DNA of 64,000 nt from Dicyema japonicum (Eukaryota; Dicyemida; Rhombozoa; Dicyemidae): assembly GCA_011109175.1 (NCBI GenBank), contig RDEW01000014.1, positions 196,042-260,041 on the forward strand, written 5' to 3'. Every line of letters starts with the position of its first letter. The first letter of the stretch is position 1. The notes under the pieces are model-generated. The model saw only the letters and a list, made by a program, of their open reading frames with translations. It was not told the DNA's origin and did not search any database. This document shows positions 1,781 through 64,000 of this stretch, piece by piece. The position numbers were made by a program, and so were the translations under genes.

Positions 1781-2183
1781 ATGCGTGTGATAGAGTACTG
1801 TAATTATAAACGAACCCTATATTGTGGTAATCTGTCACCTCAGGTCACTGAAAGTATACTATACGAGCTATTCTTACAAGTTTTGGAGCTATTCTCAATG
1901 TATTTTATAGGCAGGACCAATAGAGTCTGTTGTGTACCCAAATAAGCCACACGGCGGAAGGGGGGACTTTTGTTTCATTTTGTTCGACCACGAGGAGTCC
2001 GTCGACTACTCAATCAATATTCTCACGGGGACTAAACTTTTTGGGAATAATCTCGTCCTTAGGCACAAAACGGAAGGAAGTGGAGGACAGTCTGCCAACA
2101 ATAGCTCCACTCAGTTGGATCGATCTTTCAATAGCAGCACCAATGGTGGAAGGCACAGGGATCATGTTCGATCACGTGTGTGA
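1781..2183 (+). CDS. RBM7: RBM7-like RNA-recognition-motif protein
   Basis: Two exons, 1781-1879 and 1911-2183, joined across a 31-nt GT-AG intron, encode 123 residues. Residues about 11-75 form one RRM: RNP2 is TLYCGNL and RNP1 is GDFCFILF, followed by the KLFGNNLV strand. The spacing and wording (LYELFLQAGPIESV) match RBM7/RBM11 best. RBM7 is the RNA-binding subunit of the NEXT complex, which brings nuclear RNAs to the exosome. The tail after the RRM is short and rich in Ser, Asn and Gln, much shorter than the human tail. The start is the first in-frame ATG before the RRM. An AATAAA lies at about 2201. RBM11 or another single-RRM protein is the alternative. Confidence 0.8.
1880..1910 (+). 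other. 31-nt GT-AG intron of the RBM7-like gene
   Basis: It begins GTTTTGG and ends TTTATAG. Removing it joins YELFLQ to AGPIE within the RRM in phase 0, matching the uninterrupted family sequence. It is typical of the intron size seen in the whole window. Confidence 0.8.
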
Positions 2184-2880
2184 CATTAAAGACTTTTTAT
2201 AATAAAATGTAAATTTTTCTTTGTATTTTTTATTACTTGGGGGGTCGATATCGTATGGTCTCTAACTTTAACCTGATACAAGACCGGTTTTCCTTGTCAA
2301 TTACTGTGGATTCGTAAAAAAGGTCACTTTTAAGTTATTTGAATGCCACATAGTATATTTTGGTGAGGTGGTGACGTGCCTCGTTCTTTGACAAGGCAAC
2401 AATTGAGGAGTGTATAGAAAGGAGATGCTTCCCATCGGAACTTTTTACATTTGAAAAAAACGACAATTTTGCTACACAAGTTCAAAGTCACTTTTAAATG
2501 AGTCTATGAAACCTTTTAGCTTGAAACAGCCTTTCACGATATTGACTTTTCTGTTAGAAGCTAGTTATGTCAAAAATGATTAGGAGATGAAAAACACTTT
2601 TAAACTCTGAGCTTAAAGATTTTTAGTTACAAAAAGATATTCATGAAAAAATATTCTATTTATAAAAAATCGAAATTATTTTTGATTGCTTTTCCCCGCA
2701 TCTTAGTTTAGAGGGGCTTCAATGTAGTATCCCAGCTAATTTGAAAAAAAAGAAACAGTTTGGACATTGTGAAAAGAGAATATCTACGATATTTTTTAAA
2801 TATTGCTAAAGGGGGAGATTGATGAAAAAAGCTTTGAAACTCTAGAGTAAAGGTCACTAATCTTGGGCACAAGAGATGAT
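2184..2880. other. Intergenic, AT-rich; LINE 5'-end scrap at about 2358-2390
   Basis: No gene was recognised. A stretch of about 30 bases near 2358 (GGTGAGGTGGTGACGTGCC) is nearly identical to the start of the LINE at 12426, so it is probably a broken 5' end of that family. Confidence 0.5.
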
Positions 2881-5266: not shown

Positions 5267-5479
5267 CTCTAGGGAGTTTTTAAGTACTCTAAAATTCCTT
5301 CGATCTGCTGACCGATAAACAAAAAGAGCCGATATGACTTTAATCAAAATAAGATCAGTGTCTCTATAACCTCGAAAAAAGCAAGGTCACTCAAACGGCG
5401 AAAATCTCAATTTGATCGGCAAATCTAATCTCTACCAAATTATGTTAGAATTCATAAATAATCAGTTTATTAGTTAAAG

Positions 5480-5912
5480 TTAGATCATTGGCCATTTCCA
5501 CTGGTTAGGAGGTGACTGTTCTACCAAATCGTCCCAGGCTTCATATTTTATGAAGCTTCTGGCCAATTCTAACTCTGCATTAGCCTACTATAGAACGAAA
5601 AAGTACTTGTTCTATCAATTCCTCTACTTGACCACATCCCAGAGAGTTCTCCAGGTTCACAACATCAGCATTCCATGGTTTTGTGACTGCGGCAAGTTTG
5701 CTTGTTTATGATTTTCTCGGTGGATTGTTTGTAGTAGGACTCATTGGGAAGTTTCCTGAGAACTCGTAGTGTGTTTTGATAAGTCTCCTTCAAAACCTAA
5801 AATAAACGTTAATTTTAAGACATCGTGAGGATGCTGGGCCACTGCTAAACCGGTAAGCCCCGTTGTCTTGAACTTAATCATCAATAACAACCTTTTTGAT
5901 AAATTTTGACAT
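5480..5912 (-). CDS. NDUFA5: NADH dehydrogenase (complex I) subunit NDUFA5
   Basis: On the minus strand four exons join across introns of 19, 25 and 22 nt. The product is about 121 residues, close to the human 116. Recognisable blocks in order are KTTGLTGLAV, RVLRKLPNESYYK, KLAAVTKPW, GQVEELIEQANAELELAR and WDDLVEQSPPNQWKWP, the signature C-terminal end of this accessory subunit of the mitochondrial complex I peripheral arm. One extra base is present near NK/KLAAV: the frame before it (TEKIINK) and after it (KLAAV) both match but are offset by one, so this is either a sequencing insertion or a real lesion. The start is the ATG just before a 19-nt intron and is the least certain part. Confidence 0.85.
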
Positions 5913-6033
5913 AACCACACTAAATGTAGTTTTTCAAATAATAAAATAATTTAAATTAATTTGTGTTTTTCGTTTAAAAAGTAAAACCATATTTATTAAA
6001 ACCCTTGATGATTATTAGGTCATTATTTTAACG

Positions 6034-10600: not shown

Positions 10601-10603
10601 TAG

Positions 10604-12400: not shown

Positions 12401-12425
12401 ATTTCAATTTCAATTACCAACTTAT

Positions 12426-16209: not shown

Positions 16210-17765
16210 ATGGATAGAAAACATAGAGAATGTCTCAGACTATGCCACGTTTCTCTTTTGGATGATATTGACACGACATTTATAATCCCCCATCTATATG
16301 AATCTGGAGTTCTAACTGAACACCAAAGGGAATGTATTGAAAATAAACGTCGAATCAATGGACGCTTTGAATCAGCAAGAAGTCTTTTGTCCGTTATTGT
16401 CACGTGTGGACCCTCTGCATTTGATGTACGTTTACATTTTAGCTGATAATTGAATTTTTTAGCTGTGCTTTTTAATCGCGTCAAACGCGTCACTGCTATT
16501 TATCAAGTTGTAGTAATAACCCATTATTCTTAATTTACTTCTCTTTACGTGACAATTATAGGCATTTTTGGCAGCTCTCAAAAGCGAATATCCACATTTG
16601 AGGAAACGCGTAGAGGAGCAGTTCAATGAACTGAATGATAATAATACTGAGGAGGAGCCATGTTATGACCAACCAGGTGATTCCTTTAAATTATGGCAGA
16701 TTGTCTTTTATCTTGTGTTACTACCCCGATACTCCTGCCGACATGTGTTTATCCGCTCTTTCGTTGGCAGATGTTCCTTCAGATGGAGTCTTTTTTTTAA
16801 CCACGTGTCAAAATGATGTCGCGTTGCTAGCAAGATTGCTTCGTTCGATGGCTCAGGAAATGTCCTCTTGCTATGATGAGATCTTTAAGCAGGTAGCTAA
16901 CTGATTTGAATTCTTAGTCTGAAAAATCAACAGACGGTCTGTGGAAGAGAGCAGTGATCACTCTTACCTCACTAATCGACGTCGCTGATATCATCCTTTT
17001 GTGGCTGGAGAAGTCCAACTGTGAAGAAATCATCGACAAGGAGACCCTAGAAATCAATGAAAGTGTTTATCGTGGTTTTACTAGTTTGGCTGGTTGGCTT
17101 TGGTCTTGAATTTAGAAATTGGAAGTGTCCTCGGGAGTGCTGCCCTTTTGAGGTATGCCATGAAGTGGTTTAACGTCAAACATTATATTGCCTTCGTAGA
17201 TACCGACAGAGAGCACATTGAGCAAGTTCTCAGAGAAGTTGAATTACGGATACCTTCAATTTATACTGTTACTGATGAGGCTGCCCAGGTTTCCAGCAAA
17301 ATTACCTTAGATTCTATCAAAAATGCTGAGTTCTGACGAATTTGATCCTATCCACGTGCGTCAGTTTGATAACTGCATTCGTGTTGCTTTGATCGAAATT
17401 GATAATCTCCAGGAACGCCTAAATAATGCCTCGATGAACATAAACAGGCTGTTATATAAGCTGAATGTTGTTCTCATGTGAATTGTAGGTTATTCGTTGG
17501 TTTCACAGATTCGCTCGTTTAGTATTATTCATGTTCATCTGCAACTTTCTGTATCAATTTGTGAAGTCTTACACTTTGTCGACAAACAGTGGTATGGGTC
17601 TCAGTCATTTAAGCCATATTTATTGGGGGAATTTCTGGGACTCTTCTTATCTCCTATGGAATGGGGGAGGGGAATGCTTTATATTTGAATATTCAAAAGT
17701 TGCATAATCGATGTGAGTTGTTGGATGGACAGCTTAGTTACCTCACAAAAAAGTTATTCAAGTAA
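16210..17765 (+). CDS. CARD-domain protein with two C-terminal membrane segments
   Basis: Nine exons (16210-16425, 16562-16676, 16700-16744, 16771-16892, 16918-17092, 17116-17288, 17311-17466, 17489-17591, 17614-17765) sum to 1257 nt, an exact 418-residue frame. Introns are 136 nt, then 23, 26, 25, 23, 22, 22 and 22 nt. Residues 1-95 are a CARD of the CRADD/caspase-2 kind: HLYESGVLTEHQ in the middle helices and CGPSAFDAFLAALKSEYPHL at the end. CARDs assemble with other CARDs in apoptosis or innate immune signalling. The middle (about 100-330) looks helical and I do not recognise it; no caspase or NB-ARC motif is present. Near the C-terminus are a basic RWFHRFARLVLFMFICNFL segment and a glycine-rich IFIGGISGTLLISYG segment, probably a membrane hairpin, then a charged tail ending KKLFK. 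By analogy with CARD proteins anchored in mitochondrial membranes, an organelle surface location is possible. The CARD call is strong; the function is unknown. Confidence 0.8.
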
Positions 17766-21108: not shown

Positions 21109-23592
21109 TTATTTATCACGAATGGCTTCACTTAACAAGGACAGAGAATAACCAGCCAAATTACAAATCTGCGAATCTATCTCTTTTTGAGTTAATTCTG
21201 CAATAAGCAACCGATTAACCAGAAAAGCCAGTTGTATAAGACCATCAAATACTCTCCCAAGTCATCACCAATCGTGGAAGGGGCAGACATAAAGAGCATA
21301 CAGCAGGCAAAAACGACTGCCATCCGCACACATCTAAATCAGAAAAACATCAAAATACGGATCACTGTGGGTTATTAACGAGCATATAAAATCTGCCAAG
21401 GTACTCGCCATCCTCTTAAAATTAAGGAATATAATCAAACCGGAGAATACAGGGAAGAAGACTGATAGACTGTTGCCAGACTGTAAACCAACCTTTGAAG
21501 CAAAATCGGCTCCCTTTCGATCAAATTTAAATGAAATTTTTTACTATTGAACAATTTTGCAAAAAAATATACCAATCAGCTTGTTTAATGAGAGGATAAA
21601 AGAAATAGCTGGCCTTACAGTTAGAAACGTGATTTATAGGTCTCCGAGGGCCAGAAGAAATCACACACGTCTTACCACATTTTTTGATTGTGGTTGTTGG
21701 CTTAATTGGAGGTTGGGAAACAGGTTCACTGGCCATCTCCCTAACAGCCCTTGAGATTGAACCCAAAATGTGAAGTCTTCTTACAAAATTCACATTTTCC
21801 GAGTAAAACTCCCCGCAAACGAATGGTCCCCCTATTTCAGGGCATTTCACAAGGATAGAAGCCATAATCTTCACTTTTTGCTCTTCAAAATCAGGCAGAC
21901 CATAAGAATTCTGTAATTTGGTCAATACGCCCAGAAGGGGAACACAAACCTACAACATCACAATTAGAGGACCTCTGAAACTGATCCAATTGGTTTCTCT
22001 CTTACCATAGCTTCCAGTTCATCAAATACGCGTTTAAAGCGATTAAAGTCATCCTCAACCTTCAATTCCTCTATGCACTGTCGAAGATGAAGTGTAGGCA
22101 TCGTTTTACGCTTTTCTGGGAGTTCATATGGCTCTAGGCTGTCGTCACTGTCCAAATTGCTGTCTTCTACGCTCTTGTCATTACTGGGGGCGACATTCTC
22201 GGCCTCTTGAGGTGGTTCATGACATACTGGCAAATAGTTGAGAAACAAGGAGGACAGTTTGACTACTCGAGGACTATTTGCGATATTTGGGGGAATATTA
22301 AATCCTGGCTTGGGCCGGGTAGGTTCAAACTTCTCGAAGAACAGTTCCACGATTGTAATAATCTGGAACTTCTGGGGTCTTCCACGTTGCTTTCAAGACT
22401 GCACTTTACAGCGTTTAGCAGTCCGTCGGTCACTCCTAAAGTATAACGTAATTATAGGAATATTACCGGTCCTCATATCATCACATGACAAACGTCCCAT
22501 GGAATATGCCAGAAATTTGAGTGAATAAAACTGATAGTCCTTCGAACAGGTCTTGTGAAAGGTCTGGGTCTCATGTAAAGTCAGGATATCGAAAATAAAC
22601 TAGGATAAAGAAGAAAACAACTCTAAAAAGCAGATCCAAGTCAAATCTGAGAATTTCTACCAAATTTTTAATGACGCAGTCCTAAAGTCATTTTCAAATA
22701 TTACAGGTTCATAAAAACGGTGGAAGATAACCTTGGGTAGAACAGAGTCTTTGAAAAAGCTAGATTCAATCATTAAAGAGAAGATATGACCACAAATCAA
22801 GGGACTTGATTAAAATGACAAATTTACTCAAAGTCATGAACTATTACTGTTTTGAGATACTTTTCAATTAAAGTATCGCTTATTTGAGCGGTTAATTTCG
22901 ATAGTTTTTTCACTTTGATCTTTGCCGAAATTAGTGGATTCAGAAAATTGTCCCAGAAAATTTCCAAATTAAAAAAACTCACTACCAGAGCCATTCAGAG
23001 AGCAAATGAGCCCGGCCATTGTTGCCATATTCTTGAATCCCAAGACTTCTTCGCATTCTTCGAAGACAGAGAGAAAAGCTCTGCACAAGTGTTGAAAAAA
23101 ATTTCCAAGGTGAAAGATTCACTAACATAAAAATAATCAGAACGGAATATCACTTTGAAAAGAATTGGCCATTTTGTCGGGAAAATGCAAAATAATCCTG
23201 ATTTTGTCCTCAAAGTCCTGATCGGAGGAAAAAAACTTGAATCAACAGAACTTTAAAAATTTCTTGATTTCTGATAATTTTACTCAAAATTGAAATTTCA
23301 AGCCCGTTGTGAAACCTGAGTTTAAAAAAACCTTACTCTGAGATTGAGTTTGAAAGAATGAAGAAACTCTCACAAGGAAATGGCTTAAAAAAATATTTGT
23401 GAATTTTATTTTCTAGTAGTTTCGTCGGAATTTTGTGATTTTTATAATTTTAAGGAGATACATAAGAAAGTAATAATATTGGTTCTTTTCATAATTTTTG
23501 ATCCCTTTGTCGGCTTCATTTAAAATGTTATTGAAGCTTTCTATTGAAAAATTCCATAATAAGCTCCTCAAATCGAAAATCAATTGTTGCAT
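21109..23592 (-). CDS. TELO2: TELO2 (TEL2), TTT complex subunit
   Basis: Minus-strand gene with many short introns (for example 31 and 25 nt). Conserved blocks appear in family order: KDFEDKIRIILHFPDKMANS (near 23200), FLAYSMGRLSCDD and TDGLLNAVKCSLES (near 22400-22520), the acidic DSNLDSDDSLEPYELPEKRK hinge (near 22150), LRQCIEELKVEDDF, QKVKIMASILVKC...GEFYSENVNFVRR, YFFYPL, QRLVYSLATVYQ, STLADFICSLI and a C-terminal IAELTQKEIDSQICNL. TELO2 with TTI1 and TTI2 stabilises ATM, ATR, mTOR and DNA-PK after translation. The start is the ATG at 23592 (MQQLIFDLRSLLW). Near 22390, 21270 and 23130 the frame slips by one base, two of these next to C or G runs; an exact exon map is therefore not given. 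Confidence 0.85.
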
Positions 23593-27970: not shown

Positions 27971-27975
27971 ATTTT

Positions 27976-33341: not shown

Positions 33342-33659
33342 GCCGGGTGACATAGTGGTTAGGTGTCTGGCTTAAGTGACTTAGGCTATGAATTCGAATC
33401 TCGCTGCTGTTCACCTGGTGGAAGGTTCCACGCATCTACGATGCAGAAGGGTTTGACGAGTGACGCCGTCATCAGTGGATACTCACTGCGGAACTGGATT
33501 GTCTAGAAAGGACATCACAAGAAAAAAGAAAAAAAGAAGTGAAGATCATTCCTTGTTCTACGATTAGTTAAAATTAACTGTTCTTTACTTAAATAAAGTG
33601 TGTGTCCTGCCTATGCGGAGCTATATATACTATGGCTCTCGTGAAAAGGCTTTATTATT
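33342..33659 (+). repeat. tRNA-derived SINE with 12-bp target duplication (copy 1)
   Basis: The head (GTGACATAGTGGTTAG as A box, TTCGAATCTC as B box) resembles a tRNA internal promoter. A shared body follows (GTTCCACGCATC, TGACGCCGTCATCAGT, GGATTGTCTA). The copy is flanked by ATCCCTATCCCA at 33330-33341 and 33660-33671, which fixes its ends and shows insertion by target-primed reverse transcription. Confidence 0.85.
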
Positions 33660-33809
33660 ATCCCTATCCCATTTGTACATTCGTATCAGTCGTCTCTTTT
33701 CTTCCCTCATTTAACGGTATGTCGTCTGAACTACCACGTGAAATTCCACAAGTGGGTCGAAACAGAAATAAACTCTTGAATGTCGGATAGCCATTAAGCG
33801 TCTTTTGAG

Positions 33810-33935: not shown

Positions 33936-34068
33936 CCAGTTAACTTTCTAATCAATATATTGACGGCTAATTAATAATTCAATAAATTTAAAGTTGCAAA
34001 ACTAACTTCATAATTGATTAACCAATTTATTGGAGACATAAATTTAAGTAAAGACGACACTTATTATG

Positions 34069-35313: not shown

Positions 35314-35454
35314 AGCAGTCAAAGTTTCTAGGAAACAAAATAGAACTTTCACAAAATTTGTATTTTTTTATTATTTTAAACCTTAATAAATTTTCATAAT
35401 CAATATTTATATTTATCAAATCTCACAAATTAATTATTTGTAAATTGATCGACG

Positions 35455-35811: not shown

Positions 35812-38800
35812 TCAAAATATCCTAACCAATTTATCAATCACACTCAGCTTTGAGACCAATTGGGGATATTCTTTACTCAAAATGTCAGCCAAAGATATCA
35901 ATTTCTCCTTTCTCTCAATCTCTTGTTTGTATTCATCCTCCAATTTCTGTTCAGATTTCACCCGTCTTTTATATTTCCCGGAAATAATATTTTCATAGTT
36001 CTTTCCCCTCTTCTGCAGTCTCATCAGTCCGTTTGTGATCTGAAATCATTACATAAACAAAACATGTGCTTTCTCGAACATTAATCCATCTAACTCTTGA
36101 TTTCCTATTACATTGGACTCCTTTAGTTCTTCCAATTCCCTACTATCTATCGATGACTTGACTTGTTTGATTTCTTGGTCAATTTTTGCCTCCTCGTTCG
36201 TCAGAGACTTCAACTCCTAAAATGATAATATTTATCAAAACGAGTTTAAGTTCTTTTAAACTCCTCTTCAACTCATTTATCTTTTTCAAAGCTATGTTTA
36301 CCGGCATTTTATCACGTGATCTGATCTCTCCTTTGATCCAAATTGTTTCACGCCTTTTCAATAAAATTTACAACCTCGAAACAGCTTTTTCAGTCTCCTG
36401 TATCAAAATTTCTTGATCACGCCTCAAAATGCTTAAGAGTAACTTCCATTCTATGAATTTCGCATTTCATGGCCTTTATTTCACCATGGTCGACGTCCTG
36501 CTGCACGGTCTCTTTAGTTTCTTTTGTCAGCTTATTTCTCTTTTCCCATAAAAGAACTTCCTTTCTACATTGAATAGCAAAAGTGACTCTGATTCCACTA
36601 AATCACGGAAAATTTGTTCCTTGACTTCCTTTAAGGCTTCCAATTTATTTTCCATGCGAATAGCCTCACTTTCAGCTTCCTTTACTAAATAGATTAAAAA
36701 ACCTTCAATTGCTTTACAAAATCCTTTTCTTTAAGGATCGTTTCTGTTAAAAGCTGCTGTTCATTCTTCTGTTTCGCATAGACGAGAGCATTTAGTTTTT
36801 CAATATCGGATTGCATATGCAGGACGTCTCTTTCCACCATGACGATCTCTCCGAGTTCTTTATCGATATTCCCTACAGATTTATAATAAACCAGACTTTC
36901 TACTCTTATTTTCTTTTTAGAAAGTACTGTGAACTCTCTTCTGAGGGCATTTATCTGTTGTGTCTCGCTTTCAGTAATTTCAGTGTAATGGACAAGCTGT
37001 CGTTGATTTCTAAGCCAGTTGTTTTGCATAAATTTGATTTCATCTTCTTTCGTTTTGATATCGATCTTGTAGTGGTGAAGCTGTCGTTCGATTGGACTCA
37101 ACTCAAGTCCCTATGTTTCAAGTAAAAACAAACCCCTGATTGCTCAATCAACGTTTCCAGACTCTTGTTGAGTAGTTGTATCGTCTGCTGTTTTCGCTCG
37201 ATAATTCTCATCCTTTTGTTTATTTGAGTTTCACTGAGATTAATGTCCCCATTTCGAGATTCAATCGTTTTTTCCAAATCCTCGATTTTTTTCTTGTTCA
37301 CAGTAAGAGCTGCTTCCAAATCCAACTGTTCGAGCGTCTTTTCGGCAATTTTGTTGTCTATTTTCGCAATTTCTGATTCCTAAAAATAAAATATTCGTTC
37401 CAACCAATTCTTGTGTCAGATCACTTAATTTTACGGATATTTTTTTGCTATATTTTGCAGCTTTGCTGACGGATAGTCTCCCACGAATTTTCATTTTGAT
37501 CTCCTCTTCCAGCTTGACTTTTTTCAAATGCGACTTCTCAAGTTCCATGAACAGTGACTCATTCAATTTTTTGTCTTTTTGAAGGTCCTAAAGGGTCATT
37601 TGGATTTTATACATAATTGTATTTATTAAGTCCACTTTCAGTTTCTTGTAGCATAGACGAATATGTCGTGTACTCAACCTTCAAACACTCGTATCTGTTG
37701 TTCTCGAGGTTCAGTTGTTTGTTCGTATTGGCAATCCAAACTTGGATTTTGTGAAGAATCTGAGCCAACTGCTCGTTTTTGACCTGCTCACTGTCAGTTG
37801 ATCTTTTACAATGCTGGATCTCCATTTGCCGAGTCAAAATTGTCTTTTTAGAGTCACTGCCATTTATGGTTATGGTTACTTTATAGCGTCCATCATTTCA
37901 GAATAAATTTCGTTTCGATTCTTTACTCCCAGCAAAGCAGAATTCCACTGCTGGAATATTTTTACTCGCTCCATCTCAGCTTTCTACAAAACATAAAATA
38001 AGGCTAAAACCTGAATCTCAGCCTCAGCATCTTTCAGAATATCCTGAGCAGCTTCTTTTTCAGTTTTCTGAGCCATAATTTTGATATTCAAGCTGTCAAT
38101 TTCCCGTTCGATTCTCGCGCTTTCTTCATTCATACGGTTTAAAAAGAAATCCTAAAAAAGTTAAATTCGTAGTGACTTGTGTCAATTTGTCATCTTGATG
38201 TTGACTGACTTCCTTTTTAGCTTTATCCACTGTTCTTTCTATCAGAGAAACGTCATCTGTTTGACTTCTATGAGCTTTCTCAACGTAGAATAACATCAGA
38301 CTCAATTCATCGGTTTCTTTCATCAATTTTTTAACTTTAAATTCAAAATAGTTTTATAAACCAGTTTTCGAATCTTCATTTTGTTTTTCTGTTAATTTTT
38401 GTACGATTTTCCTCTGCTGATCAATGTTATATATGACTGTTTCATTTGCAAGGGACTTCTCCGCCAATTTCTCAACTAACTCTTCAAGATTTGCCTGCAT
38501 CATTGCTAATTCTTGCTGCCGTTCGTATAGCCGTACTCCAACTTCCTCGCGTTTTTCCTTAGTCTTCTTTAATTGCTCATCCTATATTAATTAATGAACT
38601 ATTCAATGTTTAATTAGTGCTATTCATAATAATGTTTATTAACCAATGTCGCCGTTTCTAGCTCACATTTTTCATATTGCTTTGTTAAGTGTGCACGCAG
38701 CTGATTCTGAAAACGAATCATCAGTGGGTGGTTTGGATCCAAAATCATTATTTCTTCTGGGGGACGTTCATCACGATTTAAGTCATCTTCGTTTTGGATG

Positions 38801-38976
38801 GTATCATCTAGGTTCTCTTCATGATTTCCTTGATCGAAATTATCTTCCTCATTTTCAGTACTGGGTACCTCCTGATTATCCATCATGTCTGGGGACACAT
38901 CATTGTTGTTTAAATTGCTGATTTCTTGATAATCTTCGTTCTCTAATGAAAGCTCTGAAAAATTATCGTCGCTCAT
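35812..38976 (-). CDS. CCDC40: CCDC40, axonemal ruler protein
   Basis: A long coiled-coil gene with many introns; the first is 62 nt (38582-38643) and several others are about 23 nt, for example the one near 37103-37125. After an acidic N-terminal tail comes ILDPNHPLMIRFQNQLRAHL, nearly the LDPEHPLMKRFQ block of CCDC40. Further matches are EEVGVRLYERQQELA, NEQLAQILHKIQ...YTTYSSMLQETES, INKRMRIIERKQQTIQLLNK, LELSPIERQL and the C-terminal LSKEYPQLVSKLSVIDKLV. With CCDC39 it forms the 96-nm ruler that places radial spokes, inner dynein arms and the nexin-dynein regulatory complex on motile axonemes. Start (MSDDNFSE) and stop are clear. It implies motile cilia with a standard axoneme. Confidence 0.92.
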
Positions 38977-39120
38977 TTTTGGTTGCTATATGAGTTACTC
39001 CTAGAGACAAATTTATTGAGAAAAAATAAATATAATATAATTAACCTGTCTATTTTTATTTTAATTAAATTTAATTAGTAATTAATCAGTTATCTTTAGA
39101 ATAATTTTTCAATAGCGCCA

Positions 39121-41236: not shown

Positions 41237-41237
41237 N
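41237..41237. other. Single ambiguous base (n) at a repeat junction
   Basis: The only N in the window lies exactly where copy A stops and the leader of copy B begins. It may mark a scaffold join rather than real sequence. Confidence 0.9.
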
Positions 41238-43960
41238 AATTAGTTGTTTATACTCCTTCCTTTTCGGTGCTCCCTTTTCGGGGTTATTAAATAAAAATAA
41301 ATTATGTGGTGCTATCTGGCTAGTTATTTTTTTCTTTCGATAGCGTCATTGATCCACCTTACTGAAAAGACTCCCAATGCCTGGCCGGCATCAAGATGAT
41401 CCAACTATTCTTTTTTCGGGAGACAATGTCGTTACTGGAGACGAGTTCTGGAGCACTGGAACGAGTCAGGATCAAGGAATTAGTTAGTTTGGTCATCGTT
41501 TGGTTATTGGAATAACAATTTTTTAATTTAATAAATTCTCTGAGAAAGCACTGTCTCGCAGGTACCGGGTCTTTTCCTTGTCTGTCAAGGATCACTTATT
41601 CCTTTTCTCTTTTAATCGAGAATAATAAACTAATTAGGAATTTTCTTGTGATACCTCGACGGAGAGTTGTCTGATCATAATCCCCCGAGCTCCTATACTT
41701 CGGGACTCTTACGGAGAGTGTATGTTTTACTGTGAGTAACCTGTTGTTTTTTGTGTAAATCAACGTTGAGAACTATTGAGAGATATTTTTCGGCCTTTAT
41801 AATTTTTTGTTAGTTTTTTTTTGAATATTCGAATTCAGAACATGTTTAGAGTTTTAAATGATCTTTGATGATTTCCGGTGACGAGTATGAGGAGAGATTA
41901 TAATCTATTCAACGTCTTCCTTGGTCAATACTCACTGTCTACGATTGAATATGTCTATTTTTTGTGGTAATTCTCATGTGCTGATTTTTTATCCCCAATT
42001 TGAACTATGAAGACGCTGCAAAATTATTATATGGGTTTAGACTCCAATCAATTTTTGACTAAATGTGAGGCAGTTTGTTAATTTTCAAAAAATTCAAAAG
42101 GATTTGGCAACGCCCAGAGGTTCTAATCCCTCGAAAAGGACCATTAGACCCTTCCCGGGGTCATTATCGACCCCGGCGATGTGTTCAAAAAGTCCAAACA
42201 TTCCCGGAGAAAACCCTCAGCCCACTGTGGAGAAAGAAGTTTACTGCTCTCCAATTGAAACATCAACGGAATTAATGGAAGGTCAGGGAACTCCTTTCAA
42301 TCCTGGCAAATCAGAAGATCGATGTGGCCATGATTCAAGAAACTAAACTCCGCATGCATGATTCCACTCCTTCATTCTCTGGATACGAGGCAATTAGGAT
42401 AGACCGTAAAAAGAGAAGAGGGGGTAGACTACTTACTCTATTCAAAAAGAACCTAAAATGCAGAGACATTACTTCGGAAGTGAGGAAACTTGTTGGAAAT
42501 GACGAGGTTACTGAGGCAATTGGAATTTCGCTTAGGACAACGAAAGGAAATATGTGCCTCGTGAATATCTACTTGCCTCTTCCCGGCTCCTGCCCAAAGG
42601 ACTATGTTATTCCAAACCTATCAAGATTGGCTATCTACGATGAGATCAATCATATGTGGAGATTTAAACGCAAAGCACCCATTATGGTTGTCAACCCAAC
42701 AGGCCGACACGAGAGGGAAGCTATTGTTATTGAAATCGGACTCCCTAACGATTCTGAACGATCCAGCGAAAAATACAAGGACCCCACTCAGAGAGACGGA
42801 TCAGCCTACCTCACCGATGTAACACTCTACTCACATCGCTTTCATCAAAAATTGATTGGTCAGTCTACTACGAAACAAGAAGCGACATAACCAATTGTGA
42901 TGAAGATCATGAGAGTCAAGTGAGGAGAACGCCTACAAGTTATATTACAAAGCTGCTAATTGAGAATTGTATCGCGCAATCTCTGATGATACACTGAAGA
43001 ATTGTTACTTGGACAGCTTCAATTCGTTAGAAAAAGCGATCAAATGCTTTACTTGCACAATCCTAAAAGTAAAATCATTGGCTATTCCCAAGCATTGTCT
43101 AAATTTCTCTAATAGTCGAGTGAAGTCGGTATTGATTAATAAAAAAATAACCTCAAAAAATCTAATTGGATCAAATTAGAAACGAAATTCCGGATCAGAG
43201 CTCTAAACAACGAAATAAAGGCCAGAGAGTTCAAGTCCCAGAAATTGAAGTGGAATCGAATTCTTACAAAGGTAAATCGCAACCGTAGTACCGGAGAAGT
43301 GTGGAAAGCTATACGAAATGTTGCAAAGGGAGAAGAAACTTCCCCCGAGGATGACTATACTCAACGAGACGTTAACAATTTGATAAAATTCTACACAAAA
43401 ATTTCGTACAAAGAACACAGGAAGTCGGAAGTGTTTCTCTCATCACGCAGAAAACTGAAAAGAATTCTTACCCATTTACTTCTCGGATGAAAAGTGAAGA
43501 ATGCGCTGCGTTTTACAAGAACAACGTACTCTGCCGACAACATTCCCGTAGTATTATTAAAGAATTAACAAGGCCTTTGATTCTATTTCGAGAAAAAATA
43601 TTATCAAAGAAAATTTTCCAGTCGGAGATCCCGGGGAAGCTTAAACTTTTGATAACAAATTTCTTAAGTGGACGGAAAGGACGTGTATGCCTCGGAGGAC
43701 TGAAATCAGCCTCGCGTCTACTTTCAAACGGTCTCCCCCAAGGATCTCCTTTATCCCTCGCTTTATTCAATTTATACTTACCGACCTCCCGACACCGGAA
43801 TCCAATAACGATGTTCTACTCTCATATGGGGACGATGAGACTCCATCCACCCCGAGGGATTCTCCCGAATCTCCTTTTCGCAGAGTTGACAACCATTGAG
43901 ATCCACTTGATCCTGTCACCTGATCGAATCTCAGTGATTAATGCTTTGAAGGACAGCAGA
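41238..43960 (+). mobile_element. LINE, copy B (same family, endonuclease kept)
   Basis: It repeats copy A from the leader onward with small indels. The endonuclease reads VAMIQETKLRMHDS (near 42330), MCLVNIYLPLPGSCPKDY (near 42555) and GDLNAKHPLWLS in the adjoining frame (near 42655). RT scraps include LLSNGLPQGSPLSLALFNLY (near 43720). Where copy A ends, copy B runs on (TCATATGGGGACGATGAG, a degraded YADD-like site), showing that copy A is truncated at that point. Frameshifts make it inactive. The insertion lies about 140 bases upstream of the CCDC40 start codon if copy A is included. Confidence 0.8.
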
Positions 43961-46065: not shown

Positions 46066-46376
46066 ATTTCACGAGAGCTATAATATTTATAGCTCCGCAT
46101 AGGCAGGACACATACTTTATTTAAGTAAAGAACAGTTAATTTTAACTAATCGTAGAACCAAAGAATGATCTTCACTTCTTTTTTTCTTTTTCTTGTGTGT
46201 GGGTCATTTCTAGACAATCCAGTTCCGCAGTGAGTATCCACTGATGACGGCGTCACTCGTCAAACCCTTTTGGCATCGTAGATGCGTGGAACCTTCCACC
46301 AGATAAACAGCAGCGAGAATCGAACCCGTAACCTAAGTCACTTTAGCCCGACATATAACCACTATGCCACCGGCTG
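46066..46376 (-). repeat. tRNA-derived SINE (copy 2)
   Basis: Reverse complement of the copy at 33342, about 85-90 percent by eye over its full length, including the CCGCATAGGC motif near the 3' end and the GGCTTTATTATT terminus. The A box reads GTGGCATAGTGGTTAT. Target duplications are no longer visible. Confidence 0.85.
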
Positions 46377-46599
46377 TCCTACATTAGAATATTCTAACTC
46401 CGGCTGATTACGCAATGGAAACTTACTTAACGCCAATCATTCATATGAACTCATACTGAGAATAACCCTGTCTTTAACGAGATGGCCTACAAAAGATAAG
46501 GATTAAATTGTAAGACCAGAAAGATTTGAAAATTCACAACAGAGAGGAGTAGATAAAACTAGTTATTCGGATCTGGTGCAAGTCAACACAAAAGAAATA

Positions 46600-47330: not shown

Positions 47331-48109
47331 ATGATTTCTTTCATAAGTTTTACCTTAATTTAACATATTTAGTTTTTCTAAAATTTTCGACTGGGGATGA
47401 TTTCATGGATTTACTAAATGGAAATAAGAAAGTAGTCCTCAATAATGCTGTCGCAATGTGGACCGCAGAGGTCGATGGGGTTGTTAAAGGTATTTTGGAA
47501 GGTGTAATAACCATCAAATATATGGACGACAATAGTGAAGTAATAAATATTTATAATACGAGTTCGTAACTTATACTTTTAGTCAGAATGATACTTTGTC
47601 CTTTATAAGTGATGGAACAGAAAATATCTTTGAATTAACTGCAAATGAAAGTTCACTGAAATTTTACGTTGTAAGCAATATAAATGGAAGCTATGTGAAC
47701 CGAACAGAACTTGAACTAGGTAAAAATGGCTTTTTATGTAGCTGAGGGAGGACAGTCTATTAATTACACTTCTTATGGAAATTTTGACGATAAAGGCTAT
47801 TACTCGTGTAAGAATCAAAAAATTGTCTTTAATTCTTATGATTATGTCATCTTCACCAACATCAAAATGAATTTTTCTAAAGACGACAAAATCAAAAAAT
47901 TTGTCGGAGAAAGTTTGAGATTTTTATTAGCTTGCATAGATAATAGTTGTTTCTCCCAAAACCAAGATAAATTTCCTGCACGTTTTTTAGCAAAAATATT
48001 TGGATCTGTGTCTGCGGCCATTGTTACGATGATTGTGATATCTCTTTTCGTTGTTCGGCGATATCAATATGGATATGAATGTGATGAGTTGGAATTCAGG
48101 TCAATGTGA
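47331..48109 (+). CDS. LAMP-like type I membrane glycoprotein
   Basis: Four exons (47331-47346, 47373-47539, 47563-47719, 47742-48109) with introns of 26, 23 and 22 nt encode 235 residues in an exact frame. The N-terminus MISFIIFLKFSTG is a short signal peptide. The lumenal part has about six N-glycosylation sequons (NDT, NES, NGS, NRT, NYT, NFS) and few cysteines (YYSCKN, LLACIDNSC). One membrane segment (IFGSVSAAIVTMIVISLFVV) is followed by a short cytoplasmic tail, RRYQYGYE and an acidic end. This layout and the strand pattern suggest the lysosome-associated membrane protein family. A classical GYxxI tail signal is absent. An alternative splice at the last exon would end the protein as LEFS. 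Another single-pass glycoprotein family is possible. Confidence 0.55.
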
Positions 48110-49130: not shown

Positions 49131-50307
49131 TCCGGCTCTTCAATATATGCATGAGCCAACGATACGGATACGGAAAAACAGTTGACGCAAGAGAACGTCG
49201 AAAAGGCACAAAATGATAAAAGATTCCTGTGGAGGCAAGACTAAAATATGCAGATAAGAGACCCAATTGAATAACTCTTCACGGGAGGGTGGAAAATATT
49301 GAGACGCAACTTGTGATGATTGCTTTTCTCCCTCAAATTTAATACAGACATCCACTCGCTACGGATCTGTTTGAAACGGAAAAATATGAAACATTGGAGA
49401 TTTAATCATCAGTTAAAACCTTTTTGCTCACTGGACCCAAGTCTTTTACTTTTCTACGTGTCTTCGGATTTTTGATAACCAAAAAAATAAGTGACAGTAG
49501 AGAAAAGGGATAGTGGCTTATTTGACCCATTTCTATACAAGTTATAGTAAAATATTATTATGTCTGTTCTCATTCTGGAAGTATTGTTCCATTACTATAT
49601 TTTCAGGGGGATCTATGCTTATACGCAGTGCCCAAAGAATCTCCATCTCGATTCAATGATTTCCATGCTCAATAGGATCGATTTGGTTACACGATGTAGT
49701 CTCTTATTCGACATTTTCTTTACCCCGAGCCTAATAGTTTTATTAAATGTTTCCTGTGTCTTTATTGCAGAGATTAAAGCTCATCAAAATAGTATTAATT
49801 TTATTTTAAAGATCGCGATATTCAATACATCATATTCTTTTCTATAAGGCTAGTCACGGTCTCCCAACTACTGAGTACCAAGGGCAACTGCAATAAAATA
49901 TGAGTCTTGTAATTTTTAATATCCCCAGATATGCCTGAAATAAGTTCAGTTCTTTTCAAGATCCCCATTAGTAGAACTTACCCACTGAAGTAAGTAAGAA
50001 AAGGTTCTTTTTTGGATGCTAATAATTAGGAGTATCCTGATTTAGGTGAATCCAATGACGCCCTAGGAATTGAATACGGAAGAAAGTAGAGAAATTCTAA
50101 AATAAAATAGGTATCAGTGTGAGAATCGATAGAACTAAATGCAACTAATGTAGCAGAACTTACCATTCAGCTAATTGGTCGAAGGATTTCCATTAAACCG
50201 GGTAGTCCCAAATAAAATTTATTCTTAAATCGAATAATCTCAAATAAAAGCTAATTCAAAAATTTAAATGTAAAATCATTTAATTTGAGAATATCAAAAA
50301 ATGGTAA
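49131..50307. other. Unassigned; possible short spliced pieces
   Basis: On the minus strand at about 49105-49340 two open pieces (KFEGEKQSSQVASQYFPPSR and LAHAYIEEPEADS) join in frame across a 22-nt GT-AG intron. On the plus strand near 49560 an ATG is followed by a 26-nt intron. Neither is recognised. Near 50045-50110 lies another scrap of the LINE 5' repeat. Confidence 0.3.
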
Positions 50308-51650
<1,343 letters not shown>

Positions 51651-51790
51651 AAGTGCTGGACTATTGAATTAATAACATATAATTTTAAATAGATAACAGA
51701 CAGTAAATACACTCACCACATAAATAACTAATTTCAAAATTATTTATTTATTATTATTTGATAGTTAACTTTTTAAATATAATAATTCTT

Positions 51791-54337: not shown

Positions 54338-54343
54338 AGTATA

Positions 54344-54535
54344 GCCGGGTGGCGCTGTGACGGTTGCTGGGCAAGAGGCCTGAAGGTCGCTAGTTCGAAT
54401 CCCGATACTGCACATTTCGGTTGAAAGTTCCACGCATCAATATGCTTTGGTTTGACAAGTGACGCCGTCATCAGTCAACTTCACTGCGGAACCGGATTGT
54501 CTATAAAGGACATTCACCCAAGAAAAATTAAAACC
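54344..54535 (+). repeat. tRNA-derived SINE (copy 3, second head type)
   Basis: GGTGGCGCTGTGACGGTTG (A box) and GTTCGAATCCC (B box) form a tRNA-like head that differs from copies 1 and 2. The body is the same: GTTCCACGCATC, TGACGCCGTCATCAGT, ACTGCGGAACCGGATTGTCT. The 3' part after the GGACAT block is missing. Confidence 0.85.
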
Positions 54536-54869
54536 GTTGATTGTTGGAAAGTTTAAATCACGGAGATGCCTTAAAATATAAAATCTGAGGATTATGGAGT
54601 ATTAATTTTAAATTTTTTTTTCAATGCTTGTCCTGAAGCACTTAGAGAATATTATGATTTCAAATTACGAAAAAATACAATATTGGGGGAAAATTAGCGA
54701 TACTATTTTTATTAAAAATGGCTTTTTTATTTTTAACAAGCTATTTAATTTAAAAAAAATTAAAAAATAGTATCGAAAAAAAGGATAAATAATTTTATTT
54801 TATGTGTTTGGGGGGCTTTTTATTGGGAGAGGGATTGAACTGTATTAGCAAACGCGTCGATAATCTCTG

Positions 54870-55898: not shown

Positions 55899-56160
55899 TT
55901 ATGGCGCAGTGTAACGGTTGCCGGGCAAGAGGCCTGAAGGTCGCTAGATACTGTACATTTCGGTTGAAGTTCCACGCATCTCTATGCTTTGGCTTGATGA
56001 GTGACGCCGTCATCAGTAGACATTTCACTGCAGAACCGGATCGTCTATATAAGACATAAACCCAACAAAAAAGAAAACAAAAGAAGTGAAGAGCATTCCT
56101 TGATTCTCCCTCATCGATTAGTTATGATAACTGTTATTTGCTTAAAATAAAGTGTGTAAG
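55899..56160 (+). repeat. tRNA-derived SINE (copy 4, second head type)
   Basis: The A box TGGCGCAGTGTAACGGTTG is well kept. A short deletion has removed most of the B box (CGCTAGATACTGTACA where copy 3 has CGCTAGTTCGAATCCC). The body and the 3' end (AGTGAAGAGCATTCCTTG, TTAGTTATGATAACTG, AAATAAAGTGTGT) match copies 1 and 2. Confidence 0.85.
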
Positions 56161-56215
56161 GAAGACATTAATTCATTATATTCTAAATCAATAAACTATT
56201 TGCAATTTTAGTTGA

Positions 56216-58871: not shown

Positions 58872-59570
58872 ATGCAAAATAATGAAATATCGGTCTTCAT
58901 GATAATGCTAAAGGGACAAATCGAGACCGCCAAAGTTTGGAGTTATTATTATAAATCAACAGTTTCCATCCTGTAGTGATATTTACTGCAAATACTGTTT
59001 TGTATATGGAGATGACTGGCAGAGAATATCCGTAAATAAAATCTAAGATTTTAGGGACTGGAAGAAGGGATCTCTCAAATAGTTAAACACAGCATGGACT
59101 ACAGGAAAGAATTTGTTCTCAATTTCCCGATTGATGTCACTTTTAAGAGTACGAACCCGTTTGGATGTATTCCTTGCGTTGAATTATACAGGGCCTCAAA
59201 TTGTAGTAGAATGCAGTTCATATGACACGTTCGGGAGAGAGTATATCTGTGGATATGGAGTATCCCACATCCCCACAGTAGCTGGAAAGTCAAAGTCATT
59301 TAATTTTTAGTCATTCTGTTGAGATTCCGATGTTTGTCCCCAAATCATCTTCCTCTTACAATTCTTTTTTATCCCTTCTGACAGGAAAGTACCCAATTTT
59401 CGTGGATGAGAAGAGATTAGCCACTGGTGAGGACAGACAATGTGAGAATTTGTGAATTGTGATTGTTAGTAATCAATGTGACCACACAAGGAATCTTAAA
59501 GATTCAATTTAATGTCACAACAAAGGATGTCAAAAAAATGAATTATGAAATTCAAAAATTCAATAATTAA
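58872..59570 (+). CDS. B9D1: B9D1, ciliary transition-zone B9 protein
   Basis: Six exons (58872-58934, 58963-59031, 59055-59166, 59192-59288, 59311-59441, 59470-59570) with introns of 28, 23, 25, 22 and 28 nt give an exact 190-residue frame; human B9D1 has 204. The spliced protein follows B9D1 throughout: [61 protein letters not shown] (B9 domain core), [35 protein letters not shown] and [19 protein letters not shown]9D1, with B9D2 and MKS1, forms part of the MKS module that gates the ciliary transition zone. No frame break is needed. Start and stop are both clear. Confidence 0.95.
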
Positions 59571-60945
59571 ATAAAATGTGTTTTAAAGTTTAATTTATCG
59601 GTTGTCCTCCAGGTAAACCTGCCATATCTACGATGTGGGCAACACCCCTCTCTACGGTCGTACGTAAGTAAACTGGATGATGTAAAAATTTATTCTGTTC
59701 CTTTTGTAACCTCTTCGAGTTGACACCAAATCACCTTTTTGAATGTCTTGAATTAGTACACTGTTCGCCTGACCGATCTATGGTAGCGACCGGGATTTGC
59801 TCCGTTCTGCTGGTCTCCTACAAGTTAGTGAGGCCGGGATTACTTAACTAACCGGTTTTCCGGTCTTCCTGGATAATGATTAGAAAACATCTCTAAGAAT
59901 ATAAGACCGATCTCATAGCAATAAATAGACTACCGCCACATAAGTAGAGAGGTCTTCGAATATACAAGTCCATCTATAATCAGGGGAAAGGAAAAAAAGC
60001 TTCCAGTCTTTAAAGTTGTGGAAACGCATCCAAAGGCGTGGGGAAGTTGAATTGAAATTATTTTTTTTCGAGTCATCCTAGCAATAGACGTCATCTGAGA
60101 CAGTTAGGTCACGACACCATTTAGTAGGACAAGATAAGATAAGCAACAGAGTAAAGTTAGAGAACCTTCCGTCGAGAAGATCAAACTCAGGACCGTTGTT
60201 ATAGTATGACTATTAATCATCCTTGCATATATTATGGTCGTCCTCGATATCCTTGAGTCATTGCTGATGATCTCTCTTAGAAAGATCTTTAATGGCGAGG
60301 GTAGGTGTTTTCTGGGGTATATTTCCTACTTCCCGTATTGCATCCGGCATATGCCCAACGTCCAATAATTGTATGAAGATATAGGGAGAACGAATGTAGT
60401 TTCACTGAAAACGATGCATGCTAACTCCTAAATGATTTCGACAGTAGTTTTCTTAATGCTATCGTTGCAGTCACCAAATAGTGATCTGACCTTTTTTCAG
60501 TTTTAGCCAGCTTTTCATCATCATAACAGATCCATTTTCTACAAGTTCATTTTAAAGAGATCATATCAAATATTTCAGGTACACACTTTATAATGTCTTA
60601 GAATGTTAATATCATCAGTTCATTGGTGATATGTTGTCCAAGCTTTAACTAAGACACATAGTACAGATCGACCTTCCACTCCTGATACCAGATTAGCGCA
60701 TAGACTACTTCTCAGTTTCTCTTGTGAAGTGGAAACCTGTAATGGACTATTCGAAGATTGATTTGGCAGCAACAAGGAAACATTCTCCCTGGAGATCCTT
60801 CTTTAGATGAATTGGTGGTGACTGTTTGTTATTGACTTACCAAAGATTGTAAACCTGTGGTTAATTTATTTAACAGCCCAAGACTACGGTAAAACCATAC
60901 TAATTATCACGTGATCCAGATGCATTCCAACAGCGACCACATCTT
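59571..60945. other. No gene recognised; coding-like patch near 60255-60395 (-)
   Basis: On the minus strand a frame reads QLLDVGHMPDAIREVGNIPQ and then TPTLAIKDLSKRDHQQ to a stop, which looks protein-like, but no upstream exon could be joined and I do not know the family. The rest has no supported feature. Confidence 0.25.
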
Positions 60946-60949
60946 TGCC

Positions 60950-61480: not shown

Positions 61481-62425
61481 GATAATAATTAAATGAAACC
61501 GGAAAATAAGTACTTATCACGATCAGCTTTCCAGTTTTTATTAAAAATTAAAATTTTATATTTTTTACTGGAAAATCTAATATTTTAATTTATTAATTTC
61601 TTTACCTCGAATCTGTCTGAATAGATTGTTTATTAATGCTAAATAGTTTGGAAATGCTCTAAAATTTGATGTAAATCACAATTTTCGTTAAAGCGGTAGA
61701 TTTTGTGTTTTATTGTATAACCACCAGGCTTTAAAACACACGCATATCTCTCCCGGATGTCATACGATTTATATTTTTATGGATTTTTAAATTTTCTATT
61801 AATAATTCTTAATTAATTAATTAATTAAAAGTTTTTTTTTCTATTACAAAAATGGAAAAACAACATATTTCCCTATGCATGGACGGCTATTTGAAAAAAA
61901 TTCCTTTCACATTATCTATTCAGAATAGAGTTTTTATTATTGCAAAAACGTTTACTCTATATTTTAATGAAGTCTTGAGTAGCTTTTTTTCATATTTAAA
62001 AAAATTTTCTAGAAAAATTTGTCACAAAATCAAAAACATCAAAATTTAGAAATTTAAAAAAAATAAAATTAATTTTTAGGTCAGAATTTTGGATTTGTAA
62101 AGTTGAAAAAATCACCATAATTATAATGCTTATTTGCCTTAATGGTTGTCGTGACTAATAAAAAGTACTATATATTCTAAGAATAATAAAATAATAGCAT
62201 GAGTAATGGGATTATTAGAATTAAAAGGCATTAATGAACCACAACTCTAAACGCTAACTATATACTGAGAATCTAACCCTTACTTTATTTTTTTACTTTA
62301 TACTAGTAGTCTACAAAAAAGTAATAAAATCGACTCCAAAATGGATTTACAATAATAAGATAAAATAAAAAAATTAATTTAATATTGTAAAATTAAATTT
62401 AATGCGGCATTGTTAGGTGGTATAG
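61481..62425. other. AT-rich intergenic upstream of NRBP
   Basis: Homopolymer-rich sequence with one open stretch of 65 codons at 61852-62049 of extreme A/T composition, which I do not regard as a gene. Confidence 0.4.
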
Positions 62426-64000
62426 ATGCATGAGCCCGTTGAAGAGAAAAAGATAGAAGAGAACGTAGAGGATTCTGAAGAGGATAACGATGTGATTGAG
62501 TACAGTCCATGTGGAAGATGGCAAAAAAGGAATGAGGAAATTTCTCAAAAGGAACTATCAGGCATAGACGCCACTTACTTAGCAATGGATCTTGAAGAAG
62601 GAGTCGAAGTTGTTTGGAACGAAATTGAGATCTCTGATGGACGAAACGTTGAAAAGGTAAAGGTTTGGCTCTTGGTTCTAATTCGAGGACCAAATAAATA
62701 CAGTGTTAATAAATTTGGTGAATCTTACTCACCAATACATAATCAACTTCCATCACTACTGGATTGATGCCGACAGAACTCCTTCAAGGGTTTTTTCCTC
62801 TCCGAGAATTTATAGGTTATATTCATCACGGAGTATATGAGGTGCTGGAAGCTCATGCCTTTTCTTAAGAAATCCCAGAAAACGGTCAGATACTCTCTCA
62901 AGGTTTATATCTATTTGTCTTAAGCTCAGACATGGAAGCGTTGGTGTGGGCAGATAGTATGTGCGCTCATGTATTTTTCGTTTTAATTTAAGGTTTTTCC
63001 ACCGAAATAACCATATCGATTATTCACGGAAATCTTTCGTGCGACGGAATATTTATGCAGCACAACGGAATCCTCAAAATCTGTGCAGGTCTCTTCTGGT
63101 TTTATTCCTAGTCGCCCCAGACGCCATATACAGGGGAGTCAAAACTAGTCGACTCTCTGTGGACAGACTTCTTTATATTGCCCCTGAATATGCCTCGGGT
63201 CTCGTTTATTTTTACTTTCAGAGTCTGCACCATCACTACAGCCTCTGATATTTATTCCTTTGGGATTTGTGCTTTGAGAGTATAATCTTAGTTCACTTCA
63301 AGCTTTATGTTTGCATTTTGGGACTCCCTGATGACTCCAGTCAGTTCACTCAAAAAGAGAAGCGGGACAAACTGGATAGAATCCATCGAAGACAAAAAAA
63401 TCAGGAATATGATATCAAAATGTCTTATGGAAGACCCAGAAAGTCGTCCTACTTCTCGTGATCTTCTTTTGGACCCGTCTCTAGTTGATATACCCCCGTT
63501 AAAGTTTATTGCTATTGATAAACACGGGAGAATCAGTTTGATCTGTGTATTATTTAGACAACAATCAAGTCTCTCCCAGTAATCATTACAAATCACTCAA
63601 CATTTCTGCAGATCGGACATTTGCCTTGGTGGGCACTGCTAGACAGCCTTGGCTGTTTATGTTTGCTTTCATACTTGTAGATATTCTCAGTTAAATAAGC
63701 CAGCCTTCGGGGAACTTGTAGACACTCTGAGGTTTTCCAAATTTTGAGTTTGTAGGAGCGGGAAATTCCCTTTGTTATGCTCGGATGTGTTCTCCCAATC
63801 TTTGGATGACAGCAAAACTCAAATCGTAGATAGTGCGTCCCTATCTGGAGAGAGCCATGTACAGTTATCTTCACTAATCGGTGGTGGTGAAAATACGTCA
63901 CAGGGATCTCAAAATGAGAGAGAGGTTGTCCTTCAATCCAGTCCCTTGGAGGAGACCAGACTGGCCCTGTCAATCGAATGTTCAATCAAAGAGTCAACTG
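62426..64000 (+). CDS. NRBP1: NRBP pseudokinase (3' end beyond the window)
   Basis: Eleven exons lie in the window, with introns of 25, 26, 27, 22, 23, 25, 23, 25, 26 and 24 nt. After an acidic start comes SPCGRWQKRNEEISQKELSG and AYLAMD-like TYLAMDLEEGVEVVWNEIEI, the NRBP signature. The kinase-like fold follows: NLVNLTHQYIINFHHYW, VIFITEYM, WKRWCGQIVCALM, IIHGNLSCDGIFMQHNGILK, VAPDAI, YIAPEYA, ASDIYSFGICAL, MISKCLMEDPESRPTSRDLL, then LYSQLNKPAFGELVDTLRSG. The usual HRD aspartate is replaced by N (HGN) and DFG is absent, so it should not phosphorylate. Known relatives scaffold ER-Golgi traffic and BC-box ubiquitin ligases. One extra base is present in exon 5 (about 63020) and one in exon 8 (about 63370); the exon sums fit a protein frame only if these are removed. 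Confidence 0.9.

Follow-up and report, generated by a model that had tools for sequence, protein, structure and literature searches.

The window (the whole 64-kb stretch of DNA analysed here, G000:C45:196042-260041) carries protein-coding genes interrupted by very short GT-AG introns, mostly of 22-28 nt, which rank among the shortest described in animals. All 64 kb were read along with three-frame translations of the gene regions, and 36 introns were tabulated in nine genes read by eye; 33 of the 36 have lengths of 20-31 nucleotides (nt; actual range, 21-31). The median length, taken over 35 of the 36 introns, is 25 nt. One intron lies in an RBM7-like gene, three each in NDUFA5 and a KAT5-like gene, two each in a CARD-domain gene, TELO2 and a LAMP-like gene, 13 in a CCDC40-like gene and five each in B9D1 and an NRBP-like gene; other introns of the CARD gene and an unassigned gene at 34000-35400 are left out of this tabulation. 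An earlier reading of the same DNA, the first-pass annotation, had claimed more than 35 GT-AG introns, nearly all of 20-31 nt, in at least eight unrelated genes, and our counts agree with it. As for the exceptional lengths that it gave, introns of 62 nt (CCDC40-like, 38582-38643) and 136 nt (CARD gene, 16426-16561) were found again, those of 34 and 46 nt were not located, and one of 56 nt (TELO2, 21950-22005) has to be added. VPS26C, also named there as an intron-bearing gene, was not located by a search with words taken from the human protein. The KAT5-like gene (a MYST acetyltransferase) and TELO2 were both absent from the earlier list.

A homology match covers the junction in 17 of the 36 introns (one in the RBM7-like gene, one in TELO2, two in the KAT5-like gene, five in NRBP, one in the CARD gene, two in NDUFA5 and five in B9D1), and 15 of these 17 are 20-31 nt long. 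Judged from sequence, the best case among the window genes is B9D1 (58905..59580, + strand, 3′ end approximate), with introns at 58935-58962 (28 nt), 59032-59054 (23 nt), 59167-59191 (25 nt), 59289-59310 (22 nt) and 59442-59469 (28 nt). Its spliced product of 175 amino acids (aa) is 55% identical to Nematostella B9D1, with zero gaps across the five introns. Four of the five have no alternative same-frame GT-AG pair within 12 nt; the fifth has a single alternative of 16 nt, to which the 22-nt intron is preferred because the alignment then stays ungapped.

In the RBM7-like RRM gene (1781..2183, + strand; the name comes from the first-pass annotation), the spliced protein matches RRM_1 over the junction of the only intron (1880-1910, 31 nt; E 1.1e-12). 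NDUFA5 (5480..5912, − strand) has introns at 5867-5891 (25 nt), 5797-5821 (25 nt) and 5585-5606 (22 nt); a gapless match to NDUFA5 chains covers the first two junctions, the third was placed by reading frame, and the gene contains one frameshift not associated with an intron. A CARD match (E 1.1e-12) covers the 136-nt junction of the CARD-domain gene (16210..17765, + strand, ends by eye), whose other tabulated intron, 16893-16917 (25 nt), follows from the frame; by the same standard as the others, the predicted 136-nt intron is real. In the TELO2 region (21560..22620, − strand), the Pfam family Telomere_reg-2 covers the 56-nt junction (E 2.6e-15), and the intron at 22436-22466 (31 nt) was placed by frame. 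The KAT5-like (MYST) gene (50300..51700, − strand, name and ends by eye) has introns at 51568-51592 (25 nt), 51475-51498 (24 nt) and 51385-51406 (22 nt), the first two under a Tudor-knot match (E 1.3e-19) and the third by frame, with frameshifts downstream. The gene for an NRBP-like pseudokinase (62426..64000, + strand) runs off the window; its introns at 62663-62687 (25 nt, or 31 nt if counted from 62657), 62790-62815 (26 nt), 62903-62929 (27 nt), 63089-63111 (23 nt) and 63199-63223 (25 nt) all have junctions covered by kinase-family matches, the first three under an N-terminal match below the Pfam cut-off (25.1 vs 31.7 bits), and the kinase match of the second piece is above the cut-off.

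The CCDC40-like coiled-coil gene (35812..38976, − strand) contains 13 introns of 62, 27, 25, 27, 23, 25, 25, 23, 23, 23, 21, 25 and 24 nt. Its frame is open for 758 aa across the first 10 introns and is then shifted; the last three introns were placed by eye. No Pfam family was found for this protein, and the name CCDC40 is presumptive. The two introns of the LAMP-like membrane protein gene (47405..48109, + strand), at 47540-47562 (23 nt) and 47720-47741 (22 nt), are based on the reading frame. Ab initio decoding under loose length limits, using a self-trained codon model, was tried on the window genes and rejected: exons were skipped, and frameshifts were bridged by long pseudo-introns. On Prp8 this approach was successful.

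A Prp8 gene on contig C87 (region L033) was chosen to check whether such introns are a genome-wide habit. In this gene 29 introns were tabulated, with lengths of 20-26 nt and a median of 23 nt. The decoded protein was aligned with a solved chain that is named Prp8 by its depositors and that we take to be human. A run of 729 aa has zero gaps over 12 introns and a further run of 564 aa, also gap-free, extends over 10 introns, giving 22 introns in ungapped alignment. Two more genes outside the window, read by eye with the help of human sequences, have introns of 25 and 26 nt (an NHE gene on C1) and 25 nt (the RED gene on C68).

The 5′ part of Prp8, together with upstream DNA (L033 reverse, ~1443-2027), is repeated at three other places (C181, C87:709 kb and C109) with 83-85% identity. 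Neighbouring stretches of 77-137 bases in the C181 copy are 87-88% identical, and two of the copies share their end base. The copies represent a dispersed repeat that contains a gene start. An origin of the Prp8 fragments as retrocopies was considered and rejected, as they are copies of the 5′ part at the DNA level.

Splice-site signals were counted in 64 donors (35 from the window and 29 from Prp8) and in 64 short introns (33 from the window, 29 from Prp8 and two from the NHE gene), with homology-backed and frame-only introns pooled. Donors are reduced to about AG/GTWW: the exon has A at position −2 in 66% and G at −1 in 50%, A or T predominates from +3 to +8, and G at +5 is present in 12%. 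Acceptors are mostly TAG (T at −3 in 72% of short introns), and a pyrimidine run of at least 8 is found in 1 of the 64. The loose donor after GT and the lack of a long pyrimidine tract that had been described for the window can thus be seen in the larger set. The interiors of Prp8 introns are 96% A+T, compared with 67% in Prp8 exons, and in this gene the rule “GT-AG, 20-31 nt, interior A+T of at least 85%” catches 28 of the 29 introns, three exonic decoys and five overlapping alternates. Intron composition differs strongly from gene to gene, A+T being 96% in Prp8 and 77% in the window. The motif TNAY with its A 6-14 nt before the 3′ end is found in 52 of 64 short introns versus 41.9 ± 3.5 after shuffling that preserves single-base composition only, and 3 of 500 shuffles reach this value. 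Measured from the donor, the candidate branch A with the best score is at 9-21 nt (9 nt is the minimum set for the search). Since the minimal productive donor-branchpoint distance in humans is about 46 nt (PMC11291888), the spliceosome of this organism must tolerate a very short distance, as had been supposed from the window.

Components of the major spliceosome are encoded in the genome. For the small nuclear RNAs (snRNAs) U1 and U2, part of the first-look candidates were scored. There were 25 U2 matches, 22 of them above the cut-off, with GUAGUA in both copies aligned, and 11 U1 matches, with the 5′ end ACUUAC in all eight whose flanks were printed. In addition to Prp8, one match each for SF1 and RED and six for the G-patch were above cut-off. 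TIGR01642, the model used for U2AF65, gave 32 matches, of which the best two adjoin on C114 and many of the rest are likely to be RRM proteins of a different kind. One G-patch gene (C130, L053 reverse ~1160-1650) is presumably SPF45/RBM17; its frame stops right after the G-patch.

A number of observations weigh against reading these segments as genuine introns handled by an ordinary spliceosome. Splicing was deduced from the DNA sequence. The junctions of 19 of the 36 window introns have no homology match and are based on the reading frame, partly with the help of human proteins (13 in the CCDC40-like gene, two in the LAMP-like gene and one each in NDUFA5, TELO2, the KAT5-like gene and the CARD gene); 18 of these 19 are 20-31 nt long. 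The exact frames that the first-pass annotation had obtained from exon sums did not hold everywhere: intron-less frameshifts, which by eye amount to 1 nt, are present in NDUFA5, TELO2, the CCDC40-like gene and the KAT5-like gene (window 5440-5860, 21560-22620, 36400-36450 and 50280-51300), and one NRBP junction is unsolved. By eye, similar frameshifts were also found in Prp8 (at a T-run) and in the NHE gene. In otherwise conserved genes they may be assembly indels or signs of gene decay and, with several genes affected, some copies could be decayed.

The signals and the decoding contribute further points of this kind. The window introns are less A+T-rich than those of Prp8, and the A+T rule was tried on Prp8 alone. 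The branch signal is weak, and a TACTAAC-type score was not clear of shuffles in the 64 short introns (14 of 200 reach it). The median pairing energy with U1 was −4.0 kcal/mol for 29 Prp8 donors versus −1.9 kcal/mol for 262 exonic GTs; since the donors pair better, some relevance has to be granted to pairing with U1. None of the 11 U1 matches attains the Rfam cut-off (best 69.0 vs 69.5), no U2AF65 match reaches the whole-protein cut-off of TIGR01642, a model with matches in 2 of 14 control genomes as well, and no UHM was seen by eye in the open frames downstream of the SPF45-like G-patch. The UHM of SPF45 is required in human cells (PMC8363638). A first decoding of Prp8, in which introns of 12-200 nt were allowed and upstream DNA was included, placed 27 of 58 introns in the 20-26 nt range. 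A second, with 12-120 nt allowed, placed 29 of 32 there, but its splice-site weights had been derived from the window introns together with those Prp8 introns that measured 20-31 nt in the first decoding, which makes these lengths, taken by themselves, partly circular. No such circularity affects the ungapped alignments; since the training favours such sites, the alignment is the test. Two mis-decoded places of the second decoding (one of 56 nt and one of 12 + 73 nt) were re-read by eye as 23-nt introns, the latter adjoining a frameshift, and two further introns (22 and 24 nt) were excluded from the table of 29.

If the genes were decayed, the segments could be chance GT-AG stretches that bridge frameshifts. 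The intron-less frameshifts in NDUFA5, TELO2, the KAT5-like and CCDC40-like genes, Prp8 and the NHE gene speak for such an explanation, but it does not accommodate gap-free homology across 22 Prp8 and five B9D1 introns, the absence of another same-frame GT-AG pair within 12 nt for four of the five B9D1 introns, or the A+T contrast between introns and exons of Prp8. For Prp8 and B9D1 it is already refuted, and for the whole set we consider it extremely unlikely. Dicyemids are said to eliminate DNA in somatic cells, which would count for removal of the short segments from DNA, in the manner of the internal eliminated sequences of ciliates, and not from RNA. Yet GT-AG borders, the exonic AG/GT context and the presence of U1, U2, Prp8, SF1 and U2AF65-like genes all point to splicing, and a comparison of genomic and cDNA clones of Dicyema showed introns (PMC2222250), which leaves DNA elimination with a practically negligible probability.

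The source could also be another eukaryote with tiny introns, such as a ciliate, a nucleomorph or an orthonectid; introns as small as these, or smaller, are indeed known from ciliates and nucleomorphs (PMC2222250, PMC9505925). Several findings make such a source very improbable, however. Among the matches listed, the best named B9D1 matches are animal (no dicyemid name appears in the 120 of 313 that were listed, some of them nameless), and the CARD, NRBP-like and KAT5-like genes look, by their sequence, like those of animals. Genes for U11, U12 and U6atac snRNAs are present (see below), whereas Stentor yielded no minor snRNA (PMC9505925) and the ciliates considered in PMC12862383 have no U11/U12 small nuclear ribonucleoprotein (snRNP). 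Orthonectid introns are longer, with a median of 57 bp versus 27 bp in Dicyema sp. (PMC6543705). The assembly to which the window belongs measures 64.67 Mb in 191 contigs, and the window has a GC content of 37.7% and, by eye, many retroelement-like stretches. These values agree with the dicyemid figures (~65 Mb, ~37% GC, repeat-rich), the genome of Dicyema japonicum being 67.5 Mb with 36.7% GC and 49% repeats (PMC6736024). The source proposed earlier, a dicyemid-type animal, is consistent with assembly size, GC content and intron lengths alike. Taken together, we hold it very probable that the window introns come from a dicyemid, that they are genuine spliceosomal introns, 20-31 nt long with few exceptions, and that they are removed by an ordinary U2-type spliceosome tolerating a donor-branchpoint distance of about 10-20 nt.

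In this mechanism, a U2-type spliceosome with canonical U1 and U2 motifs would excise introns of 20-31 nt, with the donor about 10-20 nt from the branchpoint and the branch A some 6-14 nt before the intron end. Because the splice sites carry so little information, intron length and the A+T contrast to exons would presumably do most of the work, i.e., the introns would be recognized by intron definition. The early complex could plausibly form by the path used for short human introns, with SMU1-RED bridging and SPF45 replacing U2AF65 at a short pyrimidine tract. As the U1 and U2 motifs are unchanged, the tolerance must lie in the proteins or in the order of assembly. Dicyemids, which are tiny parasites of octopuses, provide a natural experiment on the minimal requirements of an intron, since their introns have less than half the donor-branchpoint distance at which human splicing fails.

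Genes for three snRNAs of the minor spliceosome were also found, each as one match: U11 at C1:1591391-1591510 (67.6 bits vs an Rfam cut-off of 39; 39 of 6592 candidates scored), U12 at C68:163471-163599 (85.4 bits vs 53; 42 of 5642 scored) and U6atac at C34:237761-237858 (37.0 bits vs 33; 46 of 2792 scored). Intact stretches are GUAAGGAAAA in U12, AAAAAGGGCUU in U11, and AAAGGAGAG and CCCUUGACAAGG in U6atac, which we take to be functional stretches of these RNAs. Contamination is an unlikely origin for the three genes because their contigs carry tiny-intron genes, shared repeats or shared U2 copies. C68 contains the RED gene with its 25-nt intron, and the repeats flanking U12 are common to the window and other contigs; C1 contains the NHE gene with introns of 25-26 nt, and the U11 flank has a repeat in common with another contig; C34 carries U2 copies that resemble those of other contigs, with no shared repeat in the U6atac flank. 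These genes point to the retention of a minor spliceosome beside the major one, probably with very few introns to remove.

Searches for the introns themselves were negative. A strict U12-intron pattern gave 12 matches at nine distinct places, compared with 41 in a reversed control, and none was convincing: read by eye, four places had a base other than A or G at +1 (among them L046, beside a gene-like frame), one was in a retroelement-like frame, one was opposite a gene-like frame and in three no frame stood out clearly. A scan of 279,706 bases that tolerated mismatches produced 16 listings, none of them convincing. The NHE family, chosen on the presumption that it might contain a conserved U12 intron, gave five matches, and in the NHE gene that was read only GT-AG introns of the short class were seen, none of U12 type. 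A second NHE-like exon match lies ~2.5 kb from the first on the same strand (C1:508-513 kb); the short stretches compared are nearly identical save for a few indels, and a recent local duplication is probable.

Tentatively, and at slightly under an even chance, we propose that a working minor spliceosome is kept alongside major introns of 22-28 nt, and that its few U12-type introns are either compacted to ~28-40 nt or are the only introns spared compaction. In a U12-type intron of ~28-40 nt, the donor RTATCCTT would almost touch the branch site CCTTAAC. If the proposal is true, either outcome would set the lower size limit of U12-type splicing, to which a pan-eukaryotic survey was blind because introns under 30 bp were excluded (PMC10639083). 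The text of that survey, as far as available, contains no mention of “dicyem”, and PMC2483917, in its available part, deals with intron length, donor and branch only for Dicyema/mesozoa. The literature searched, to which most subscription papers do not belong, yielded no account of minor-spliceosome snRNAs in a dicyemid. The occurrence of U11, U12 and U6atac alongside introns of ~25 nt is the part found in no paper searched and is worth following: it makes testable how short U12-type introns can be and why a lineage with so many losses keeps a second spliceosome.

Repeats were noted in the window by eye. A SINE-like (short interspersed element-like) dispersed repeat occurs on both strands at ~33340-33660, 46070-46390, 54345-54540 and 55900-56170. 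Long, similar retroelement-like units pair ~39120-40060 with 41237-42120 and ~40080-41220 with 42110-43830, and an N is present at ~41237, at the junction of such units.

Among known systems, Blastocystis resembles the present genome in having U11, U12 and U6atac snRNAs, but its minor introns, the shortest on average in the survey that excluded those under 30 bp, average just under 42 bp (PMC10639083), and no minor intron was found here. The 15-16 nt introns of Stentor coeruleus are likewise A+U-rich and without a strong branch consensus, with canonical U1 ACUUACCU and U2 GUAGUA (PMC9505925); the difference lies in the minor-spliceosome snRNAs, found here but not in Stentor. The ciliates considered in PMC12862383 differ in the same way, being without the U11/U12 snRNP. 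Introns of Paramecium (20-35 nt) and of the Bigelowiella nucleomorph (18-21 nt) belong to the same size class (PMC2222250), in unrelated lineages. Human short introns that depend on SPF45/RBM17 and SMU1-RED share the shortness and the truncated pyrimidine tract, and this genome has both RED and an SPF45-like gene; their donor-branchpoint distance is, however, at least ~46 nt (PMC11291888), compared with at most ~21 nt to the candidate branch A here, and the SPF45-like gene showed no UHM by eye.

The closest likeness is to the introns of dicyemids (D. acuticephalum, D. japonicum and Dicyema sp.), which are GT-AG, uniform, about 26-27 nt long and dense in genes, with a loose donor and no branch signature (PMC2222250, PMC2483917, PMC6543705, PMC6736024). 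Sixteen Dicyema introns averaged 26.2 nt (PMC2222250), the median in Dicyema sp. is 27 bp with two thirds under 30 bp (PMC6543705), and the mean in D. japonicum is 38.2 bp (PMC6736024); the dicyemid donor is the weakest known, at 0.5 bits (PMC2483917). The first-pass annotation was right that very short dicyemid introns are on record, and the phenomenon itself is already known: tiny introns, loose donors and the missing branch signature have all been published. The genes studied here have the same traits, namely introns mostly under 30 nt in many unrelated genes, a very weak donor and only a weak excess of TNAY. The present analysis extends beyond the introns to snRNA genes and several splicing factors. 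Nothing essential in length sets them apart, and the Prp8 introns, with their median of 23 nt, are even shorter.

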